DNA from: Saccharofermentans sp.
Lineage (GTDB): Bacteria > Bacillota > Clostridia > Saccharofermentanales > Saccharofermentanaceae
DNA: 64,000 nucleotides
Assembly: GCA_024403695.1 (NCBI GenBank)
Contig: JAKSRI010000009.1
Location: forward strand, 1 to 64,000
Direction of reading: 5' to 3'
In this document: in pieces, positions 10,372-24,964 of the stretch
Layout of the letters: each line of letters starts with the position of its first letter
Numbering within the stretch: the stretch's first letter is position 1
Position numbers and translations under genes: made by a program
The notes under the pieces: generated by a model
Seen by the model: only the letters and a program-made list of their open reading frames with translations
Told to the model about the DNA's origin: nothing
The model's database searches: none

Positions 10372-11577
10372 ATGGCTAAAATTCAGATGAAAACCCCACT
10401 TGTAGAGATGGACGGAGACGAGATGACAAGAGTTCTCTGGCAGATTATTAAGGATGAACTCTTGATTCCTTTTATCGATCTTAAGACAGAGTATTATGAC
10501 CTTGGACTCGAGTATCGTAATGAGACTAACGACCAGGTAACTTTCGACTCCGCTGAGGCAACTAAGAAATATGGTGTTGCTGTTAAGTGTGCAACAATTA
10601 CTCCTAATGCTGCACGTATGACTGAGTATGATCTTAAGGAGATGTGGAAGTCCCCTAACGGTACTATTCGTGCCATGCTCGATGGTACAGTATTCCGTGC
10701 TCCTATTCAGGTTAAGGGCATTGATCCTTGCGTAAAGAACTGGGCTAAGCCTATTACTCTCGCACGTCATGCTTATGGTGACGTATATAAGAATACCGAG
10801 ATTAAGGTGCCAGGCGCAGGTAAGGCGGAGCTCGTATTTACAGCAGAGGATGGAACAGAAATCAGAAAGACAATTATGGACTTTGATGGCCCAGGCATTA
10901 TCCAGGGTATCCACAACAAGGATAAGTCTATCGAGAGTTTTGCACGTTCCTGCTTTAACTACGCTCTCGATACTAAGCAGGACCTCTGGTTCGCTACTAA
11001 GGATACAATTTCTAAGATTTACGATCATACATTTAAGGATATTTTCGCAGACATCTTCGAGGCCGAGTATAAGGAGAAGTTTGATGCTGCTGGTATCGAA
11101 TATTTCTATACACTTATCGACGATGCTGTGGCACGTGTTATGAAGGCCAAGGGAGGCTTCATCTGGGCCTGCAAGAACTATGATGGTGACGTAATGAGTG
11201 ACATGGTTTCTTCAGCATGCGGATCACTTGCCATGATGACGTCTGTGCTTGTTTCTCCTTCTGGCGTGTATGAGTACGAAGCAGCTCACGGAACAGTTCA
11301 GAGACATTACTACAAGCATCTTAAGGGGGAGGAAACATCAACTAACTCTGTTGCTACTATCTTCGCATGGACGGGTGCTCTTCGTAAGCGTGGCGAAATG
11401 GATGACATCCCTGAGCTTATGGAGTTTGCAGACAAGCTCGAGAAGGCAACACTTTCTACTATTGAGTCTGGAAAGATGACGAAAGATCTGGCGCTCATCA
11501 CATCACTTGAGAACGTGACTGTGCTTAACAGTCAGGACTTTATTAAGGCTATTCGTGAGACACTTGAGAACAGCTAA
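10372..11577 (+). CDS. icd: NADP-dependent isocitrate dehydrogenase
   Basis: The 401-residue protein is of the homodimeric, eukaryote-like NADP-IDH class. It has an N-terminal [15 protein letters not shown] motif, [20 protein letters not shown], the substrate loop [16 protein letters not shown], the metal-binding [25 protein letters not shown] and the NADP-site region [11 protein letters not shown]. It converts isocitrate to 2-oxoglutarate and CO2 and makes NADPH. It is the second gene of the gltA operon. A GGAGA ribosome site precedes its ATG. The following ArAE-HAD gene appears to begin inside its last codons. Confidence 0.94.
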
Positions 11578-12871
11578 TCAACACAAACAAAAACATGGCA
11601 TTCCTGGTATTGGAATGCGAATTGTAAAGTCAGCAATTGCAGTTGCAATTTGCTTTCTTGTAAGCCTACCAAGAGGTGAGGAGGGAATGGTTTTCTATTC
11701 TCTCCTTGCTTCGTTGTGGTGCATTCAGATGTACAGAAGCAACACAATACGTAATGCCATTCAGAGAACTATTGGAACAGTTGTGGGCGCTGTATATGGA
11801 CTTATCTATTTGCTGATATACAGAAGTTCTGCGGTTAATGAATCCGCTGCGTTCTGGCTAGAGATGGGCATGGTGTCTCTCGGAATATTACTTGTTCTAT
11901 ACACCACAGTTCTTCTTGATAAGAAGCAGGCATCTTATTTTTCCTGCGTAGTATTTCTAAGTATTGTTATTAATCATTCAACTGATATGGTCCCTTACTT
12001 GTTTGTGTGGAATCGTTTCCTAGATACTATGATTGGTATCGTTATCGGTATTGTGATTAACGATATTCATATTTGTATTAATCCTGATAAGGAAACATTG
12101 TTTATATCAGGTCTTGACGATACTCTTCTGGATAAAGATGAGGTGCTCAGTAGTTTCAGTAAAGTCGAGCTTAACCGAATGATCGATAGTGGTATGAAGT
12201 TCACAGTGTCTACTATCAGAACACCAGCGTCACTTATGGAACCAATGAGAGATGTCAGACTTAATCTTCCTGTTGTAGCTATGGATGGTGCTGTTCTATA
12301 TGACGTGAAGAAGAATGAGTATCTGCATACATGTAAAATTAAGCCTTTTATCTCAGAAGACCTGATAAGACTTTTTAAGCTGTCAGGACTTTGCTGGTAT
12401 GCTAACGTGATTATGGATGATGTACTCATTATCTTCTATGGTGATATGGAAGATGAGACCAATCTTAATATGGTTCGTAAGCTTAAGGTTTCTCCGTTCC
12501 GTAATTATGTGAAGAGAGAACTTCCTGCTAACGAAGACGTAGTGTATTTCATGTTGCTTGACAGAACAGATATTATAAACTCATTCGAACTTGTACTTAA
12601 CAGTCAGCCATACGCTAAGTTCCTCAGAATCGTTAAGTATCCGTCAGTCGATTATCCAGGTTATTCCTATATTAAAATCTACGATAAAGATGCGAATAAA
12701 GAGAATACACTTAATGAGCTGAAGAAAATAACAGGTCTGGAAAAGACAGTAACACTTGGAACCATAGAAGGACAGTATGACATATTAATTGCTGGTGATG
12801 ATGGCAATGAAGTTGTAAGGCAGGTTCGTAAGATGTATGAGCCGTTGCTTTTCAGAAGGAAATCCAAATAA
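11555..12871 (+). CDS. ArAE/FUSC-like membrane domain fused to HAD-family hydrolase domain
   Basis: The 438-residue protein has two parts. Residues about 20-165 hold a [17 protein letters not shown] motif and several transmembrane helices, as in the aromatic acid exporter (ArAE/FUSC) N-terminal domain. Residues about 180-430 resemble a Cof-type HAD phosphatase, but motif I reads [12 protein letters not shown], with SGLDDT where DxDGT is canonical. The leading Asp nucleophile therefore looks replaced, although [11 protein letters not shown] and a C-terminal region are present. The start is uncertain: GTG at 11555 overlaps icd by 23 bp, and ATG at 11615 would cut the conserved N-terminus. Co-transcription with gltA-icd is likely. 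The transported or sensed compound is unknown. Confidence 0.7.
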
Positions 12872-12941: not shown

Positions 12942-13043
12942 ACAAAGGAGTTTGCTTCTAGGAAGCGGGCTCCTTTTTTGTATATGGAAATGAAATTATA
13001 CGGGTAAAACAAAGGCGTTTGGTAGAGATACCAGCGCCTTTTT
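12942..13043 (+). promoter_or_regulatory. Tandem-hairpin attenuator leader, copy B (before ATP-grasp operon)
   Basis: Same plan as 8834-8913. Motif ACAAAGGAGTTT (12942-12953) opens hairpin 1 (12947-12973, GGAGTTTGCTTC with GAAGCGGGCTCC, then six T). Motif ACAAAGGCGTTT (13009-13020) opens hairpin 2 (13014-13038, loop GAGA, then five T), which ends just before the AAAGGAG ribosome site. The stems differ in sequence from copy A but keep pairing, with several G-U substitutions, which supports a functional RNA. The spacer between hairpins is longer than in copy A. Confidence 0.65.
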
Positions 13044-13062: not shown

Positions 13063-14382
13063 ATGGACAGATTACAACTTCTTGAGCATACGGATACCGT
13101 AAATGAATTGCTCGCACGTTATGGCGTTAAGTTTGGTATTTATAAGAATAATACTTTTCACGAGCAGCTTTTTCCGTTCGACGCTATACCAAGAGTTATA
13201 GAGGCGGATGAATTTGAATATCTGGAGAAGGGACTTAAGCAGCGTGTTGTTGCTCTTAATATGTTCCTTAAGGATATCTATAGTAAGAAGCAGATTGTAA
13301 AGGATGGAGTAATTCCTGAGGACTTCATCTTCGCATCCAGCGGATATATGGTGGAGTGTGAGGGTGTAAATCCTGTTAAGGATGTGTACTCTCACATTTC
13401 TGGTATCGACCTGGTAAAGGGTAAGGATGGAACATGGTACATTCTTGAAGATAACTTAAGAGTTCCTTCTGGTGCATCTTATCCGATGATCGCGAGAGAC
13501 CTTTGCAGACGTTCTTCTCCAGGCACATTCTCTGACCTGAAGATTGAGGATAACCGTAATTACGCACAGCTTTTAAGAAGAACCATGGATAACGTTAATG
13601 TTGGTGGTCACAGCGTAATTCTTACTCCTGGTAGATATAACGCAGCCTATTTCGAGCACAGTTACCTTGCTGAGAAAACTGGCGCACACCTGGTTAATGG
13701 ATCAGAGCTTACAGTTGAAGATGACAAGCTCTATTTCATAACTGCAAACGGCACCAAGGAGAGGGTTGGCGTCGTTTACAGAAGAATCTCTGACGAGTAT
13801 CTGGACCCTATGAATTTCAACCCTGAGTCCCTTATTGGTATTCCTCATATTTATGATGTATTCCGTAAGGGTAACGTGGCGCTTATGAACGCACCTGGTA
13901 ATGGCGTTGCTGATGATAAGGGTATCTACTATTTCGTACCAAAGATGATCAAGTATTACCTTGGTGAGGACGCAATTCTTAATAATGCACCAACATATCT
14001 GCCATTCTATGAAGATGACTACAAGTACGTTATCGAGAATTTCGACAACCTGGTTCTTAAGGACGTTGCTGAGGCTGGTGGATACGGCGTCGTATTTGGT
14101 AACAAGATGACAAAGCAGGAGAAGGCAGACTTCCTGGATCTCCTTAAGGCAGAACCAAGAAGATTCATTGCACAGGAAGTAATTGACTTCCAGGATCTGG
14201 ACATTATAGATAACGGATTGCAGGTTCCACGTAAGGCTGACCTTAGAGCTTTCGTTCTCATGGCAGATGAGCCACTCGTATGGAAGAGTGGACTTACAAG
14301 ATTCTCACGTAACCCAGATTCATTCATTGTTAACTCATCACAAGGAGGAGGTTTTAAAGACACATGGGTATTATCTCGATAG
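13063..14382 (+). CDS. Circularly permuted ATP-grasp family protein (DUF404/DUF407 type)
   Basis: The 439-residue protein matches the circularly permuted ATP-grasp family. Seen motifs are LEDNLRVPSGASYPM, the PGRYNAAYFEHSYLA stretch, VYRRISDEYLDP, NAPGNGVADDKGIYYFVP with IKYYLGE, VLKDVAEAGGYGVVFG and the C-terminal signature VNSSQGGGFKDTW. Family members are predicted amide or peptide ligases that activate a carboxylate with ATP; products are not known. AAAGGAG precedes the ATG. It is the first of five tightly packed genes (alpha-E, transglutaminase-like, two AstE/AspA types), and the alpha-E gene starts inside its last 19 bp. The leader it shares with citrate synthase suggests nitrogen or 2-oxoglutarate-linked control; this link is inference. 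Confidence 0.88.
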   Translation: MDRLQLLEHTDTVNELLARYGVKFGIYKNNTFHEQLFPFDAIPRVIEADEFEYLEKGLKQRVVALNMFLKDIYSKKQIVKDGVIPEDFIFASSGYMVECEGVNPVKDVYSHISGIDLVKGKDGTWYILEDNLRVPSGASYPMIARDLCRRSSPGTFSDLKIEDNRNYAQLLRRTMDNVNVGGHSVILTPGRYNAAYFEHSYLAEKTGAHLVNGSELTVEDDKLYFITANGTKERVGVVYRRISDEYLDPMNFNPESLIGIPHIYDVFRKGNVALMNAPGNGVADDKGIYYFVPKMIKYYLGEDAILNNAPTYLPFYEDDYKYVIENFDNLVLKDVAEAGGYGVVFGNKMTKQEKADFLDLLKAEPRRFIAQEVIDFQDLDIIDNGLQVPRKADLRAFVLMADEPLVWKSGLTRFSRNPDSFIVNSSQGGGFKDTWVLSR

Positions 14383-15026
14383 AACAGGCTGACCGTTTAT
14401 TCTGGCTCGGTCGATATACAGAAAGAGTTTTTACAACACTTAGAATTTATTCTCAGAGCTTCGACATTATGATCGATGAGATTGCAGATAACTATATCGA
14501 ATTCTGCAAGAATATTGATATTCCTAACATTTATGAGAGCAAGGAGGATTTCATTAACAGATATCCTTTTGATCCTGAGAATTCAGATTCTATTATCAGC
14601 AATCTTAACCGCGCTTATGACAATGCGATTATGCTTCGTGAGAGCATCGGATCTGAGACACTGGCGTATATTCAGCTCGCTATTTATGAGATGAATAAGG
14701 CTGCTAAGAGTAGCTCACCACTTGTTGATTTCCAGAAGGTTAATGACAATCTTCTCGCGTTCTACGGAACCGTTGATGATCAGATTGATAGTGAGAATAT
14801 CCGTAATATTATCAAGTCTGGTAAGAGAATTGAGCGAATCGATATGTATGCCCGTCTCGGTGCTTCCCGTAAGGAACTTGCCAGAGAGATACATCGTATG
14901 ATTCCTAGAGTTCAGAAGAGTGGTCTCGAGTATAACGAAGATAAATTGATGCACATCGATGAATTAATTAATGAAGATGTGATCGATTATTACGGAATCG
15001 TCAGTGAAGTCGAATCCATATTGTGA
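14364..15026 (+). CDS. Alpha-E domain protein (DUF403 type)
   Basis: The 220-residue, mostly alpha-helical protein starts with ISIEQADRLFWLGRYTERV, the hallmark of the alpha-E domain that accompanies circularly permuted ATP-grasp enzymes. A second conserved region (GKRIERIDMYARLGASRKEL) repeats the ER-D-R pattern. Family members are usually near 300 residues, so this one is short. The role is unknown; it is thought to be a partner of the ATP-grasp ligase because the two are often adjacent or fused. The ATG overlaps the upstream gene by 19 bp and follows a GGAGGAGG-like site (about 14344-14350), so translation is coupled. Confidence 0.85.
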   Translation: MGIISIEQADRLFWLGRYTERVFTTLRIYSQSFDIMIDEIADNYIEFCKNIDIPNIYESKEDFINRYPFDPENSDSIISNLNRAYDNAIMLRESIGSETLAYIQLAIYEMNKAAKSSSPLVDFQKVNDNLLAFYGTVDDQIDSENIRNIIKSGKRIERIDMYARLGASRKELAREIHRMIPRVQKSGLEYNEDKLMHIDELINEDVIDYYGIVSEVESIL

Positions 15027-15038
15027 TTGGAGTAGTAA

Positions 15039-15848
15039 ATGAAGAAATTACACTTCGATTATTCTATGAGAATCGATTATGAGGAAATGGTTTCTACGTG
15101 TAGTTTCACGATTAAGTGTATACCGCAGAAAAATAGTCGTCAGGTCCCAGACAATGTTCATATTGATATATGTCCGCCCACAAAGTACTGTCTGGGATCC
15201 GACGGACTAAATAATCCGCAGATATACGGTAAGAACGGGGAACCTCATGATTACTTCACCTTTAAAATTACGGGTGATGTGGCGGTTGGTTTGTCTCTTT
15301 ATGATGAAGTTGCAGATGAAGGTCTCGCCATGATATTCAACCATCCTCACGGCCTTAATGTGGCGGGGGAAAATATAAAGAAATATTACGATAGTCTTGA
15401 TGTAGACGGTATTGATGATCCTTATCAGAAGGCGATGAGAATCATGTACCGTTTTCATGATGATTACGAATATAGAACTAATAGCACAAGCATTTATACC
15501 ACCGCAGAGGAGGCGTTCTCTCAAGGGTATGGTGTATGTCAGGATTTTGCGCATATCTTTATCGCACTCATGCATCTGGCTGGAATTCCTGCCAGATATG
15601 TAACGGGACTTATTACAGGTGAGGGTGCCAGCCACGCCTGGGTAGAGGTGCTGAGCGATGGTAAATGGTATGGTCTTGATCCGACAAATAATAAACCGGT
15701 GTTTGATGAGCATATTAAGCTCGGTGTAGGCCGTGACGCTAATGACTGCATGATTAACAGGGGCATTATGCATGGCGGTGGCGGTCAGACTCAGACAATT
15801 AATGTAACAGTTGAAGAAATAGATGAAAGGAAAATGAATAATGATTAA
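15039..15848 (+). CDS. Transglutaminase-like (papain-fold) protein
   Basis: The 269-residue protein has an N-terminal beta-rich region and a C-terminal transglutaminase-like core. The catalytic triad is readable as Cys167 (GYGVCQDFAHIF), His199 (GEGASHAWVEV) and Asp214 (WYGLDPTNN). No signal peptide is visible, so it is probably cytoplasmic. Bacterial members of this class act as peptidases or amide-transfer enzymes and commonly accompany ATP-grasp/alpha-E pairs. It lies 12 bp after the alpha-E gene and overlaps the next gene by 8 bp. The substrate is unknown; a peptide or amide made by the upstream ligase is a reasonable guess. Confidence 0.88.
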   Translation: MKKLHFDYSMRIDYEEMVSTCSFTIKCIPQKNSRQVPDNVHIDICPPTKYCLGSDGLNNPQIYGKNGEPHDYFTFKITGDVAVGLSLYDEVADEGLAMIFNHPHGLNVAGENIKKYYDSLDVDGIDDPYQKAMRIMYRFHDDYEYRTNSTSIYTTAEEAFSQGYGVCQDFAHIFIALMHLAGIPARYVTGLITGEGASHAWVEVLSDGKWYGLDPTNNKPVFDEHIKLGVGRDANDCMINRGIMHGGGGQTQTINVTVEEIDERKMNND

Positions 15849-16788
15849 AACGGTAGCATCAGTAGCTTTGCCAGTTGATGAAGTTCTCGCTATAAAAAAG
15901 CGCAGAATCGCACCAGAAGGTAAGACAAAAGGCATGAAGAGAATCAGTGTTGTCACTGGTATTCACGGCGATGAGCTGGAGGGACAGTACGTATGTTATG
16001 AGCTCGGCAGAAGAATTGAAGCCCAGAAAGATAAGCTTAAGGGTATTGTTGATATTTACCCAGCTATGAATCCTCTTGGAATCGATTCCATTACTCGTGG
16101 TATCCCTGCATTTGACCTTGATATGAATAGACTTTTTCCAGGTAATATTGAGGGTAATATGACTGAGTATCTCGCAGCTGAGATTATGAAGGATGTGTCT
16201 GGTTCTGACCTGGTTGTGGACATCCACGCAAGTAATATTTACCTTACAGAGATTCCACAGATTAGAATCAACGAACTTCATGAGGATTTTCTCGTGCCTG
16301 TGGCAAAGCAGTCTAACGTGGACTTCATCTGGGTCCATGGTGCTAGTACCGTTCTTGAGTCCACTTTCGCTTACTCCCTTAACAGCACAGGTACACCTTG
16401 TCTCGTAGTCGAAATGGGCGTGGGCATGCGTATAACTAAGGCTTATGGCGACCAGATGGTTGACGGTATCTTTAATATGATGAAAGAGATGGGTATCTGG
16501 GAGGGGGACGTTAACCCTGTAAGAGAACCTATTATCTCCAAAGACTGGCAGGATGTTAGTTATCTTAATGCCAGTGTGGGAGGTCTCTTTGTACCACACG
16601 TAAATCACTGGGTAAAGCTTAAGGAAGGCGACCTTATCGGAGAGATTATTAATCCTCTCACAGGACAGGTGCTCGAAAGTGTTACGTCACCTGTGGACGG
16701 CATTCTTTTTACCATTCGTGACTATCCGATAGTAGATGAAGGATCACTTGTGGGAAGACTTCTTCGCAAGGAGGTATACGAGGGATGA
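15841..16788 (+). CDS. AstE/AspA-family (M14-like) zinc amide hydrolase, catalytic residues intact
   Basis: The 315-residue protein belongs to the succinylglutamate desuccinylase/aspartoacylase family. Zinc ligands are readable as His42 and Glu45 (GIHGDELEG) and His129 (VVDIHAS). The substrate-binding Asn-Arg pair is at 96-97 (DMNRLFPG), and the catalytic Glu is probably Glu191 (CLVVEMGVG). The C-terminal part (about residue 245 on) is a beta-barrel typical of the family. Such enzymes remove an acyl group from an amino acid or hydrolyse a small amide. It overlaps the transglutaminase-like gene by 8 bp and the paralogue below by 4 bp. Its substrate is unknown. Confidence 0.85.
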   Translation: MIKTVASVALPVDEVLAIKKRRIAPEGKTKGMKRISVVTGIHGDELEGQYVCYELGRRIEAQKDKLKGIVDIYPAMNPLGIDSITRGIPAFDLDMNRLFPGNIEGNMTEYLAAEIMKDVSGSDLVVDIHASNIYLTEIPQIRINELHEDFLVPVAKQSNVDFIWVHGASTVLESTFAYSLNSTGTPCLVVEMGVGMRITKAYGDQMVDGIFNMMKEMGIWEGDVNPVREPIISKDWQDVSYLNASVGGLFVPHVNHWVKLKEGDLIGEIINPLTGQVLESVTSPVDGILFTIRDYPIVDEGSLVGRLLRKEVYEG

Positions 16789-17708
16789 AAAAGAAAATTA
16801 TCTATGAGTTAAAGGGACTTTACAGAGACAGTCTCCGCGTTACAGGTTATGAGTTTGGTAAGGGCAAGAAGAGTATCTGTATCGTAGGTACTATGAGAGG
16901 TAATGAGGTACAGCAGCTCTATTGTTGTTCACAGTTGGTTAAGAAGTTTAAGCAGCTTGAAGAGGAAGGTAGAATTGCTCCTGGTCACAAGATTCTTATT
17001 ATTCCTAGCTGTAACCCATATTCAATTAATATCCAGAAGAGATTTTGGCCAATTGATAACACAGATATTAACCGTATGTTCCCAGGTTATGATCTCGGTG
17101 AGACAACACAGCGTATTGCCGATGGTGTGTTCCAGGCTATTAAGGACTATAAGTATGGTATTCAGTTTACCTCGTTCTATATGCCAGGTGAGTTTATTCC
17201 TCACGTTCGTATGATGGATGAAGGATACAGCACAGTAGAAGATGCTCTTAAGTTCGAGATGCCATACGTGGTTCGCCGTAAGGTTCGTCCTTATGACACA
17301 GCAACTCTTAATTATAACTGGCAGGTGTGGGAGACACAGGCATTCAGCTTCTATACTACTTCCACAACTACTATTGACCGCCGTTCTGCAGGCCAGGCAG
17401 TTCTTAGTGTTATGAAGTTCCTGTCAGCTCTAGGTATTGTTAAGTATCAGTCCAGTGGTCGTGTTCAGCAGTCTATCGTGTTTGATGATACGGAGCTTGT
17501 ATCTGTTCGTACTGCTAAGTCGGGTATCTTCGAGCCACTTGTTAAGGTTGGCGATGACGTAGGCGAAGGAACACCACTTGCTAATATCGTTAATCCATAC
17601 GACGGTGAGATTATGGAGACACTCTATGCTCCGCTAGAGTCTAAGGTGTTCTTCATGCACACTGACCCTCTTACTTACGCTAATACAGCGGTATTTAAAT
17701 TGATATAA
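16785..17708 (+). CDS. AstE/AspA-family paralogue lacking zinc and catalytic residues
   Basis: The 307-residue protein aligns along its length with the preceding gene product and keeps the CNP, DINRMFPG and C-terminal barrel regions. However, the first zinc motif reads GTMRGNEVQ, so His42 becomes Arg38. The second reads YGIQFTSF, so His129 becomes Thr129. The catalytic Glu position (Glu191) becomes a Tyr in FSFYTTS. Glu41 remains. It is therefore probably not a zinc hydrolase. It could be a binding or regulatory partner of its active neighbour, or have gained a different activity. The ATG overlaps the previous stop by 4 bp, so both should be made in similar amounts. Confidence 0.82.
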   Translation: MKKKIIYELKGLYRDSLRVTGYEFGKGKKSICIVGTMRGNEVQQLYCCSQLVKKFKQLEEEGRIAPGHKILIIPSCNPYSINIQKRFWPIDNTDINRMFPGYDLGETTQRIADGVFQAIKDYKYGIQFTSFYMPGEFIPHVRMMDEGYSTVEDALKFEMPYVVRRKVRPYDTATLNYNWQVWETQAFSFYTTSTTTIDRRSAGQAVLSVMKFLSALGIVKYQSSGRVQQSIVFDDTELVSVRTAKSGIFEPLVKVGDDVGEGTPLANIVNPYDGEIMETLYAPLESKVFFMHTDPLTYANTAVFKLI

Positions 17709-17738
17709 TTCATTGTGATTATATAATTCTCCTTTGCA

Positions 17739-17770
17739 AGACCATGTCGTTCCCGGGGCATGGTCTTTTT
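17739..17770 (+). terminator. Intrinsic terminator of the ATP-grasp operon
   Basis: AGACCATG and CATGGTCT arms with a 12-base loop, followed by T5. It lies 30 bp past the last gene. Confidence 0.85.
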
Positions 17771-17904: not shown

Positions 17905-18123
17905 GTGATGTATTTTAGGGATAAGGAACATAATCCACCACATATACATGCAATTACCAAAGACTTTGATGCACCATTTCTCATTTCGACTGGAGAAATT
18001 ATGGAGGGCTATTTCCCTAAGAAATCAGCCGCATTAGTTAAGAAATTTGTATTGAACTATAAATGTGAATTGGAGGAAATGTGGGAGACGGAAAAGTATA
18101 TTAAACTTCCACCATTAGTATGA
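17905..18123 (+). CDS. DUF4160 domain protein
   Basis: This 72-residue protein carries the DUF4160 signature MYFRDKEHNPPHIHA near its N-terminus. Family members usually have about 12 more residues before this motif, so the protein is slightly short. GTG at 17905 (nine bases after GGAGG) and ATG at 17908 are both possible starts. The stop overlaps the ATG of the next gene by three bases. DUF4160 and DUF2442 genes are often paired and are suspected toxin-antitoxin-like modules, without established activity. Confidence 0.8.
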   Translation: MMYFRDKEHNPPHIHAITKDFDAPFLISTGEIMEGYFPKKSAALVKKFVLNYKCELEEMWETEKYIKLPPLV

Positions 18124-18611
18124 TGCATCATAAAGCTGTAGAAGTTGAATTTAAAGAAAATACCGTGCTTGAAGTAAAGTTTCAGACAGGAGAAGTGAAG
18201 TCTTATGATATGGCGTTGTTGTTTGAGAAACACGTTTCTTTGCAGGCTTTGCAAAACCGTAACTTATTTTTGGCGGGTAGGCTCTGTGGTTCATCTGGAA
18301 TATATTGGAATGATGATTTGGATATAGACGTTGAGACTATCTATGAGGACGGTACAACTATTCGAATTGATAGTGATGTATTACCATTTGGCGATGCTTT
18401 ATGCAAAGCGAGAGCAAGAGCTGAGTTATCTCAGAAAAAGTTATCTGTTTTAACGGGTATCGACCAATCTGACATCTCGAAGATTGAACGTGGAATTGCT
18501 AATCCATCTGTAGGTACACTTAATCGTATCGCCAAGGCGATGGGATGTTCATTAGTAGTGGATTTTATTTTTGAAGAATCACAAGATGGTCACAAGTCTT
18601 CTGTACTATAA
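18120..18611 (+). CDS. DUF2442 domain fused to XRE-family helix-turn-helix
   Basis: The 163-residue protein has an N-terminal DUF2442 region, including the VEFKENTVLEVKFQTGEVKSYD stretch (split here by its conserved acidic-aromatic pattern) and IYWNDDLDIDVETIYEDG. It ends with a Cro/C1-type HTH (LSQKKLSVLTGIDQSDISKIERG, seen as QKKLSVLTGI then SDISKIERG). It is translated in overlap with the DUF4160 gene, so the pair is one unit. The HTH part suggests DNA binding and autoregulation, perhaps at the GGGATATATCCC palindrome. A toxin-antitoxin role is a hypothesis only. Confidence 0.8.
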   Translation: MMHHKAVEVEFKENTVLEVKFQTGEVKSYDMALLFEKHVSLQALQNRNLFLAGRLCGSSGIYWNDDLDIDVETIYEDGTTIRIDSDVLPFGDALCKARARAELSQKKLSVLTGIDQSDISKIERGIANPSVGTLNRIAKAMGCSLVVDFIFEESQDGHKSSVL

Positions 18612-21765: not shown

Positions 21766-21829
21766 TTTACGGGAGAATCTATTATATAATATAAATTAGT
21801 ATAGTGTGGAGTAGTATTTGGAGGTTTGT

Positions 21830-24800
21830 ATGATCGATCATTACAATGCATTCATATCTTATAAACATGCAGAACTTGATAATAAGATAGCAGAGCATGT
21901 TCAGAAGAAACTGGAACATTTTCATATTCCTGCCAAGATTCAGAAGCAGACAGGTAAAAAGAAGATTGAGCGTGTTTTCCGTGATAAGGACGAACTTCCT
22001 ATTACAAGTGATCTTACTGAGACTATCTCCTATGCGCTGGAACATGCAGATTACCTCATTGTAATTTGCTCTACTAATACTAAGAAATCTATTTGGGTAA
22101 AAAGAGAGATTGAGTTTTTCCTTAAGACTCACGATCGTAGCCGCATCCTTACGGTTTTGTGCGATGGTGAACCATATGATGTTATCCCTGAGGAACTTAC
22201 TACCCAGGAGAAAACGGTTATTGATGAGAATGGAAAAGAGGTAACTATCACCACCAGCATGGAGCCACTTTCATGCGATTACAGAGAGGGCCTTCGTAAG
22301 GGGGATAAGGAAGAGTTACCACGTCTTGCTAGTGCGATTATTGGTTGTTCCTATGACGAGCTTATGAATCGTCGCCGTCAGTATAAAACACGACAGATGG
22401 TGCTTATTTTCTCTCTCGTTATTTCTATGCTTATTGCGCTTGGTTCTTACTTCTTCTGGACTTACAGGAAAATCCAGGACAGCCTTAAGGCGGCGAGAAT
22501 CAGTCAGGCGCGTTACTACGCAGGTGAGTCCGAGAGACTTCTTGAACAGGATCAGAGGATTAAGGCGATTCAGTTGGCCTTGATGGCACTTCCTAGTGAG
22601 GAGAATCCTGACTGTCCAATTATTCCAGAAGCGCAGCGTGCGCTTACCGACTCAGTATCAGCTTATGTTACAGAAAGCACGCTTAATCCAGGTGCTGTAT
22701 GGAGTTACTCTATGAGCAGTAATATTAATGCTTTTGAGGTATCTCCTAATGACAAGTATCTTGCTGGTCGAGATGACTCTGAGAATATTTATGTCTGGGA
22801 TATGGAGACCAAACAGCCAATTATGCAGTTGGGAGCACAGCCGGTTAAGTCTTTGCGTATATTGTTTGCAAATGATGATACTTTTGTGGTTGTTTATCCA
22901 ACTAAGGTGAGAGCTTATGACGTAACATCAGGAAAAATGAAATGGGAAACTCCAGGTTATTATGGTATTCATCATTCTAGAGCGCCTATAAGTGAAGATG
23001 GAAAATATCTTATTCTTACAGACGATATTGATGGTGTTGCGTATATTGATATAGCAACCGGAAATGTTGATAAAAACTATGATTATGACTTTAAGTCATT
23101 TGATATTGCAGGCTTCAGTCCGTTTGTTGCGTATCCTAATGCCAAGCTTACAAAGTATATAACTCTTGGAAGTGCATATGAGGGAGAGGGTGGAACCTAC
23201 TGCCATATAGTTGGTGTTGTTGATACCACTACAGGTGAAGAAACTTTAGTAGGAATATATAATATGGTTTCTTATGATGTTGAGTGGATAAGTGAGGATA
23301 AGGCCGTTATTGCCTTGCTTAATGACTATAACACCCATTATGTCGGTACCGACGCTGCTTACATAGCTAAGGATACTTGTGAATTGATGTGTATCGATGT
23401 TAATACCGGAGAGGTGCTTTGGAATTCCCAAACAGAATATACAGGTGATATTGGTTTCTTCGGCTTGTTTGAATTCGTTTCCAACGACAAAATTGCTCTG
23501 GTTTGTGGAGATAACTATCAGGTATTTGATCTTAAGAATGGAACTGAAGTTGTAAATTGTCAGATGACATCTGCTATCGCTGGTATTGCAGATCGACATG
23601 ATTCAGGTCAGCCTATGATTATAACAGCTGATGGTAAAGTATCTCTTGCAAATGAGACATATAGTCCAGGTTGTTATTATACATACGATGTTTTGCCAGA
23701 TGATTTGATTATGGCAGAAGTTCATGACGTGCTTTATCTGGTTCAGAGAAACAGCAATGAGATTCTTCTTTTTGACTTTAATGTTTATGATGAAAACTGG
23801 AATTGTATTTCTGATGAAAAGATTCCTATTGCAACTAATAGCGAAGATGTTCAGTATACGGTGGAAGACGGAGTAGTTGTAGTAGTATCTAGCGAAGAGA
23901 ACATTGTAGATGTTTACGACGTTAATTCTGATAAAAAACTAGCTCATGTTGATATGGATGATTTTTATCCGGATCAGATTTCTTACCCAATATATGATGT
24001 TTTGGGCGTGGTTGATGGTAAGGCATACTTTTCTTTTTACTGTTGGGGAATAAGCGTAGTAGCATCTATCGATTGTGATACTGGAAAATACAAAGAAATA
24101 TTTGTAGATACAGAAAGTTTTTATAGAGATTATAAGGCTAAGTTATGTGGTAATATCATTTCCTACATAGTCTCTCAGGACAGGGATGGTACTTCTATTG
24201 GTCTGTATGATACTAGCTCCGGAAAGACAAAGACTGTAGAGCTAGATTCCATAGAGATGGAAAACAATTATAGTGCCAAGTACTTCATACCTGTTTATTT
24301 TAGTGATATAAATTCGATTTTCTACGTTAATGAAGATGGTAAAAATCTGCTCTACAATGTGGAAACCAAAAAACAGAGCAAATTTGATATGCCTGATGAA
24401 TGGCAGAGAACTAATGTAGTGGCAGTGTCACCTGAAGGAGATTTGTGCCTAGCTGATAATTCAAGAATTGCAGTATTTGATCAGAAGGGTAATCTGAAAA
24501 ATACTATTATCTGCAATCAGGGTTCAGTTAATTGTATTGATTTCTATACTCCTGCCAAATCCAAAGAGTCAGTTATGTTGGCTTCCACAACAGCTGGATT
24601 TTTGTGCAGATACAGTACTTCTGATTATAGTTCAATTGGATCTAATAAGATGGTTGCTTTTGAAGAAGGCAATTACGAAGTAAAAATGAATTTTGATATT
24701 GATAGAAATTATTTGTACATAAATTCAAAGACAACTATGAGTATGATTGATATGAGTAGTTGGTATGAAGTTTCAGTAATTAACTCTGCTATAGGTCACT

Positions 24801-24964
24801 GTAACGAGACGGATAAGATTTATACAATATCAACCACTGATGGAAAGCGATATGGAGTAGGATATTTTAAGCACTATACTATTGATGAGCTTATTCAGAT
24901 GGGTAAGAACATCTTAGGTGATTATCAGTTCTCCGATGAAGAGAAGGCATCATACGGTGGATAA
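21830..24964 (+). CDS. TIR-domain membrane protein with C-terminal propeller-like region
   Basis: The 1044-residue protein opens with a TIR domain (residues 1-130). NAFISYKHAE is the first strand, and SIWVKREIEFF holds the likely catalytic Glu93 seen in NAD-cleaving TIRs. One transmembrane helix lies at about residues 190-211. A linker coiled region and about 750 residues of WD40/PQQ-like repeats follow (WDMETK, YDVTSGKMKWE, IDVNTGEVLWNSQ). If the TIR is cytoplasmic, the propeller is outside the cell and could be a sensor. GGAGG precedes ATG 21830; the in-frame TTG at 21818 overlaps that site. The propeller half is visibly AT-richer than neighbouring housekeeping genes. The function is unknown; NADase signalling or defence is possible but not shown. 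Confidence 0.82.
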   Translation: MIDHYNAFISYKHAELDNKIAEHVQKKLEHFHIPAKIQKQTGKKKIERVFRDKDELPITSDLTETISYALEHADYLIVICSTNTKKSIWVKREIEFFLKTHDRSRILTVLCDGEPYDVIPEELTTQEKTVIDENGKEVTITTSMEPLSCDYREGLRKGDKEELPRLASAIIGCSYDELMNRRRQYKTRQMVLIFSLVISMLIALGSYFFWTYRKIQDSLKAARISQARYYAGESERLLEQDQRIKAIQLALMALPSEENPDCPIIPEAQRALTDSVSAYVTESTLNPGAVWSYSMSSNINAFEVSPNDKYLAGRDDSENIYVWDMETKQPIMQLGAQPVKSLRILFANDDTFVVVYPTKVRAYDVTSGKMKWETPGYYGIHHSRAPISEDGKYLILTDDIDGVAYIDIATGNVDKNYDYDFKSFDIAGFSPFVAYPNAKLTKYITLGSAYEGEGGTYCHIVGVVDTTTGEETLVGIYNMVSYDVEWISEDKAVIALLNDYNTHYVGTDAAYIAKDTCELMCIDVNTGEVLWNSQTEYTGDIGFFGLFEFVSNDKIALVCGDNYQVFDLKNGTEVVNCQMTSAIAGIADRHDSGQPMIITADGKVSLANETYSPGCYYTYDVLPDDLIMAEVHDVLYLVQRNSNEILLFDFNVYDENWNCISDEKIPIATNSEDVQYTVEDGVVVVVSSEENIVDVYDVNSDKKLAHVDMDDFYPDQISYPIYDVLGVVDGKAYFSFYCWGISVVASIDCDTGKYKEIFVDTESFYRDYKAKLCGNIISYIVSQDRDGTSIGLYDTSSGKTKTVELDSIEMENNYSAKYFIPVYFSDINSIFYVNEDGKNLLYNVETKKQSKFDMPDEWQRTNVVAVSPEGDLCLADNSRIAVFDQKGNLKNTIICNQGSVNCIDFYTPAKSKESVMLASTTAGFLCRYSTSDYSSIGSNKMVAFEEGNYEVKMNFDIDRNYLYINSKTTMSMIDMSSWYEVSVINSAIGHCNETDKIYTISTTDGKRYGVGYFKHYTIDELIQMGKNILGDYQFSDEEKASYGG

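Follow-up and report, generated by a model that had tools for sequence, protein, structure and literature searches.

Five genes on the forward strand of the window (the whole 64,000-nucleotide stretch of DNA analysed here) form a compact run whose neighbors overlap or nearly touch one another (Table 1). They encode, in order, a circularly permuted (cp) ATP-grasp ligase, an Alpha-E protein whose gene overlaps that of the ligase, a transglutaminase-like cysteine protein, an AstE/AspA-type deacylase that we call A, and a paralogue of A that we call B. These five genes are bracketed by two terminator-like hairpins, the longest ones detected in the region, and a promoter scan of the region gave matches no richer than those in shuffled sequence. 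Nearly all homologous loci that lie on a long enough contig carry the same order of ATP-grasp, Alpha-E, transglutaminase, A and B. Among the homologous operons, the cp-ATP-grasp protein is 69-98% identical, and in 69 homologues of the transglutaminase-like protein conservation is 97% or higher at each of Cys167, His199 and Asp214. The gene before the run, a FUSC-like/HAD fusion, has a relative near the operon in about 15 loci; a putative regulator lies just downstream of the run, followed further on by a large multidomain protein.

Table 1. Features of the A/B locus and its surroundings (positions in the window)
Feature	Position	Strand	Description
FUSC-like/HAD fusion	11555..12871		aromatic-acid-exporter/FUSC-like membrane domain fused to HAD hydrolase
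Terminator-like hairpin 5' of the five genes	12944..12976	+	15 pairs then T run; consensus match only
cp-ATP-grasp ligase (PF14403/PF04174)	13063..14382	+	Pfam 452.8 bits
Alpha-E (PF04168), 220 aa short form	14364..15026	+	Pfam 84.8 bits, profile 6-168 of 294
Transglutaminase-like cysteine protein	15039..15848	+	Cys167-His199-Asp214; Pfam 83.1 bits
A	15841..16788	+	intact AstE/AspA-type deacylase, 315 aa; His42, Glu45, His129, Glu191, Asn96-Arg97
B	16785..17708	+	zinc-less, catalytic-Glu-less paralogue of A, 307 aa
Arg38 codon of B (zinc His in A)	16896..16898	+	Arg in 80/80 homologues covering the site
Glu41 codon of B (zinc-ligand position retained)	16905..16907	+	invariant
Asn96-Arg97 codons of B (substrate-binding pair retained)	17070..17075	+	81/81
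Thr129 codon of B (second zinc His in A)	17169..17171	+	His in no homologue
Tyr190 codon of B (catalytic Glu in A)	17352..17354	+	Tyr in 81/81
Terminator-like hairpin just 3' of B	17738..17767	+	11 pairs then T run; consensus match only
DUF2442/HTH protein	18120..18611		DUF2442 fused to Cro/C1-type HTH regulator
1048-aa protein	21818..24964		TIR/SEFIR-like N-terminus, hydrophobic stretch, then beta-propeller-like repeats (by eye)

Residue losses and retained fold of B

Aligned over 287 columns, A and B are 23% identical (E 7e-19), and both exceed the Pfam cut-off of 25 bits for the AstE/AspA catalytic domain (PF24827), A with 85.9 bits and B with 36.8 bits. Both fall below the cut-off of the DoeB equivalog TIGR02994 (52.5 bits for A and 34.9 bits for B versus 402.7). 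A preliminary description of this DNA had reported that B has lost key residues of A, and both the two open reading frames and the losses are borne out: His42 of A is replaced by Arg38 in B, His129 by Thr129, and the catalytic Glu191 by Tyr190. Around this last position, the gapless alignment reads VVEMGVGMRIT in A, SFYTTSTTTID in B and ILMLGVARRID in an older form of B that is described below. B lacks two of the three zinc ligands and the catalytic Glu. Glu41 of B, which corresponds to Glu45 of A, retains the third zinc-ligand position, and the Asn96-Arg97 substrate pair is common to both proteins. With the residues needed for zinc hydrolysis gone, B is predicted to be metal-free, and the chemistry of A, to judge from its family, is likely to be amide deacylation of amino-acid conjugates.

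Homology and fold place B within the AstE/AspA family, but the zinc set and the catalytic Glu that mark the family are absent from it. An AlphaFold model of B (pLDDT 86.5, low at residues 81-100) matches members of the family with Z of 24.6-25.9 across 275-289 residues, including DoeB (6twm; Z 25.9, rmsd 2.9, 287 residues) and CphZ (8ein; Z 25.6). The C-terminal barrel, which had been said to persist along with the Asn-Arg pair, does so in this model, in which residues 231-306 are mostly strands with block-mean pLDDT of 92-98. Among B proteins, the cleft is the most conserved part, and the C-terminal domain shows weak conservation. Of the invariant columns, 72/76 fall in the catalytic domain (Fisher P 1e-8), and they are enriched in the segments of the ancestral cleft (40/72 positions vs 32/145), for which the P of 1.5e-6 is indicative only because the segments were picked from the known family fold after the alignment had been seen. 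His140 is nearly invariant (78/81) and is shared with the older form of B; no other conserved His is found near the cleft across the B homologues.

Conservation of B and its coupling to A

Scanning genome contigs gave 80 loci, mostly from Lachnospiraceae, with some from Treponema MAGs and from relatives of the window; two loci (L057 and L069), in which gene order or frames are broken around or inside the pair, probably through assembly joins or local decay, were left out. Alignment of many homologues, the check that the preliminary description had advised, finds the losses conserved (Table 1). Residue 129 of the 81 B homologues is Thr in 41, Ala in 38, Ser in 1 and Pro in L080, and is never His, and the complete His-Glu-His set occurs in no homologue of the zinc-less grade. 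Glu41, Asn96 and Arg97 are invariant across the homologous loci, and A retains all of its catalytic residues in those same loci. Sequencing error or chance is ruled out as the source of the losses, because about 80 homologous loci show identical replacements, and this distribution points to losses of long standing that have become fixed.

Identity averaged over the alignment columns is 71% in B and 72% in A. By a simple counting method, with dS high in the first group, dN/dS in four groups is 0.042, 0.018, 0.062 and 0.051 for B and, in the same order, 0.063, 0.060, 0.059 and 0.092 for A; purifying selection on B is about as strong as that on A, or stronger. Dozens of gut bacteria carry the same dead and live proteins next to each other, which argues that the dead copy is maintained by selection as a functional component, probably as a partner for regulation or binding. 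The view that B is a real, old and selected pseudoenzyme paired with an active sister, not a decaying gene, is strongly supported, and the earlier idea of a dead paralogue with a kept role agrees with losses fixed in about 80 loci at dN/dS of 0.018-0.062.

B is also tightly coupled to A. The stop codon of A and the start codon of B share the bases ATGA, and across loci the median spacing of the two genes is -4 bp, with overlap in 49/77. All 17 genomes with B that were tested for A have it, adjacent to B, and B without an adjacent A occurs only in broken-looking loci or at contig ends. In a sample of 391 genomes from the class, B is found in 15 and Alpha-E in 12, all 12 of which are within the 15. 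The pair can also stand without the rest of the operon: four genomes (G738, which is a single contig, G810, G831 and G951) have no cp-ATP-grasp match above the family cut-off anywhere in the genome, and in each A and B are adjacent. The transglutaminase of G951 (L040) is truncated to 97 aa beside an intact A and B, and in G738 (L195) the pair sits after an amino-acid ABC importer, a PucR/CdaR-like regulator and a GABA-type aminotransferase. Two human-faecal scaffolds labelled as phage likewise hold a bare A/B pair. Because the pair is kept without the ligase genes, we consider the tie between A and B to be closer than the tie of either to those genes.

The neighbors of the pair offer a hint as to its substrate. 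Polar amino-acid importers, a PuuD-like Peptidase_C26 protein and a GABA-type transaminase, which occur in some loci, point to amino-acid or gamma-glutamyl-type conjugates, and a short list of candidate substrates can be drawn from the pair-only genomes, in one of which an amino-acid importer and a transaminase accompany the pair.

The two faecal scaffolds (L191 and L192; MT835471.1 and MT835514.1) were deposited as 'Bacteriophage sp.' (UNVERIFIED) and carry ordinary bacterial genes around the pair; they are probably bacterial scaffolds, and the A copy of L191 has Asn-Met instead of Asn-Arg. B of G481 (L143:5669-7204, - strand) is fused C-terminally to a class I methyltransferase domain (Methyltransf_11, 79 bits), a join that may be genuine or may stem from the loss of a stop codon. 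Four Treponema or Spirochaetales MAGs (L028, L029, L036 and L037) hold the operon with 77-79% identity to the window's B, and only 8/115 genomes of the window's own family have it, a distribution that suggests horizontal transfer among gut bacteria, with mis-binning as an alternative.

Origin of the pair and probable stepwise loss

The five-gene order is likewise present in the taxonomic order of genomes G512 and G490, a small and deep lineage. In this order, 6/9 genomes hold the pair, and their older B retains the His-Glu-His set and has Met at the catalytic Glu position in 6/6 genomes. The preliminary description had reasoned that same-locus homologues with an intact His-Glu-His set would mark the window's copy as a recent decay. 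Such homologues do exist, but they too are without the catalytic Glu, and this makes them an older stage rather than evidence for recent decay. Alpha-E is about 220 aa long in the zinc-less lineages versus full length in G490 (L139:4735-5658, 307 aa, profile 1-294); the loss of its C-terminal part thus lies in the portion of the tree where B lost its zinc site.

In the tree, both grades of A fall together (100/99), as do both grades of B (99/97), and A and B form a joint group (96/94) to the exclusion of other AstE/DoeB proteins. Long branches come together where A and B fork, as the tree program warned, and this makes the joint group less certain than the separation of A from B; their common origin is supported independently by the position that they share in the operon. 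From tree and gene order together, A and B appear to be sister clades that arose from one duplication. Older B and zinc-less B share a signature that is absent from A, namely Arg14, Phe24, Asn82, Asp91, Thr93, Ile95, Met98, Tyr102, Glu106, Thr107, Gln109, Arg110, His140, Tyr161, Pro169 and Trp179. The stem leading to zinc-less B is long, with 3.63 changes per site, and is followed by stasis. About 20 polar residues are fixed in zinc-less B and absent from both A and older B, among them Arg38, Asn40, Gln43, Gln44, Lys85, Gln127, Tyr132, Asp171, Thr172, Asn176, Asn178, Gln180, Tyr190 and Thr194.

The simplest reading is that the catalytic Glu of B was lost before the zinc His residues; it is also possible that this Glu was lost on two separate occasions in B lineages. 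The path to a pseudoenzyme would be legible in living lineages, from an intact A, through a B without the catalytic Glu, to a B without the zinc ligands.

Possible roles of B and comparison with known systems

We propose, with moderate confidence, that A and B make up a deacylase in which B is an obligate pseudo-subunit, one that binds ligand without hydrolyzing it and works together with A. A heteromer is the likeliest reading of the gene data, and direct contact between the two proteins is suggested by them. In the proposed mechanism, A and B would assemble and hydrolysis would be carried out by A only, on a substrate expected to be an N-acyl or peptide-like amide of an amino acid. B would keep the ancestral cleft, including Glu41, Arg86, Asn96, Arg97 and Arg142, and its Arg38 would put a positive charge at the former metal site. 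Substrate, product or an effector could then bind in the cleft of B and thereby activate, gate or specify A. The preliminary description had raised such a heteromer, which gains indirect support from the overlap of the two genes, their almost universal adjacency and the survival of the pair where the rest of the operon is gone, although adjacency and overlap are also frequent in operons for proteins that do not touch, which weighs against inferring contact between A and B.

The polar residues unique to zinc-less B could equally reflect a new ligand or a new chemistry unrelated to A. B may thus act alone in the pathway of A, as a soluble binding protein or a zinc-free enzyme, with the pairing a sign of a shared pathway. 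We regard this as a genuine but lesser possibility: new function is also the pattern suggested by a stem of 3.6 changes per site followed by stasis, but B is always found beside A, broken-looking or contig-end loci aside. A related reading, which we put forward only tentatively, is that the rebuilt cleft of B is a zinc-free functional site, either a sensor of amino-acid conjugates or a seat of new catalysis, such that, in a machine of two subunits, A would hydrolyze and B would read or convert the substrate, with the intermediate stage of this change still living.

Other explanations fare less well. B might retain a metal through relocated ligands and still hydrolyze an amide, for which the kept Glu41 and the shared His140 could be called upon; with the zinc His pair and the catalytic Glu absent and no further His conserved near the cleft, we find this improbable. 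Equally doubtful is a purely structural scaffold for A with an empty cleft, which would fit the gene coupling and the retained fold, because an empty cleft should drift, yet conservation is highest there. That B is a decaying copy or pseudogene, as its loss of catalytic residues relative to A might imply, is refuted by dN/dS well below 0.1, open frames and identical losses over many genera, which rule out recent decay.

The pseudo-subunit that we favor can be set beside several known systems. With the AstE/AspA family (PF24827; DoeB/EutE 6twm, the cyanophycin dipeptide hydrolase CphZ 8ein, aspartoacylase), B shares the whole fold and its C-terminal barrel, the Asn-Arg substrate motif and one zinc ligand, but differs in being without the two zinc His and the catalytic Glu. 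Our literature search found no paper that pairs an aspartoacylase with a pseudoenzyme and no pseudoenzyme of the AstE/AspA family. Dead paralogues that activate a live sister are known from the trypanosome AdoMetDC prozyme (PMC5201418) and deoxyhypusine synthase (PMC3663545). The shared trait is a catalytically dead paralogue retained beside its live sister; here, the fold is another, the setting is bacterial and the two genes overlap, and B would be a candidate activator of A.

An ATP-grasp ligase gene also adjoins an AstE-family gene in the rimK - AstE-family - RimK/LysX-family operon of a Vibrio nigripulchritudo plasmid (L193), which differs in having one AstE copy, another ATP-grasp family and a RimK/LysX-family protein in the place of the transglutaminase. 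Across the literature searched, which did not include the 2009 amidoligase survey, ATP-grasp, alpha-E, transglutaminase and succinylglutamate desuccinylase were never found together, and AstE genes may already have been mentioned for such operons.

The closest counterpart of the ligase part is the Anbu operon, which comprises a cp-ATP-grasp protein, Alpha-E, a transglutaminase-like protein and Anbu, and for which a peptide-synthesis or tagging system of unknown product has been hypothesized (PMC6376114, PMC5666114). No Anbu is present among the five genes, and the proteasome fold (PF00227) has no match in the window's genome (96% complete), which speaks against an Anbu encoded elsewhere in that genome and doing its usual job. 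Other genomes do have PF00227 matches, located at a distance from the operon in frames of 184-206 aa, and this length would fit HslV. The first three gene families of the Anbu operon thus recur here in the same order, with Alpha-E cut to about 220 aa and with the A/B pair, not Anbu, in the peptidase slot. Through this locus, the still unexplained ATP-grasp/Alpha-E/transglutaminase system is now joined to a deacylase pair.
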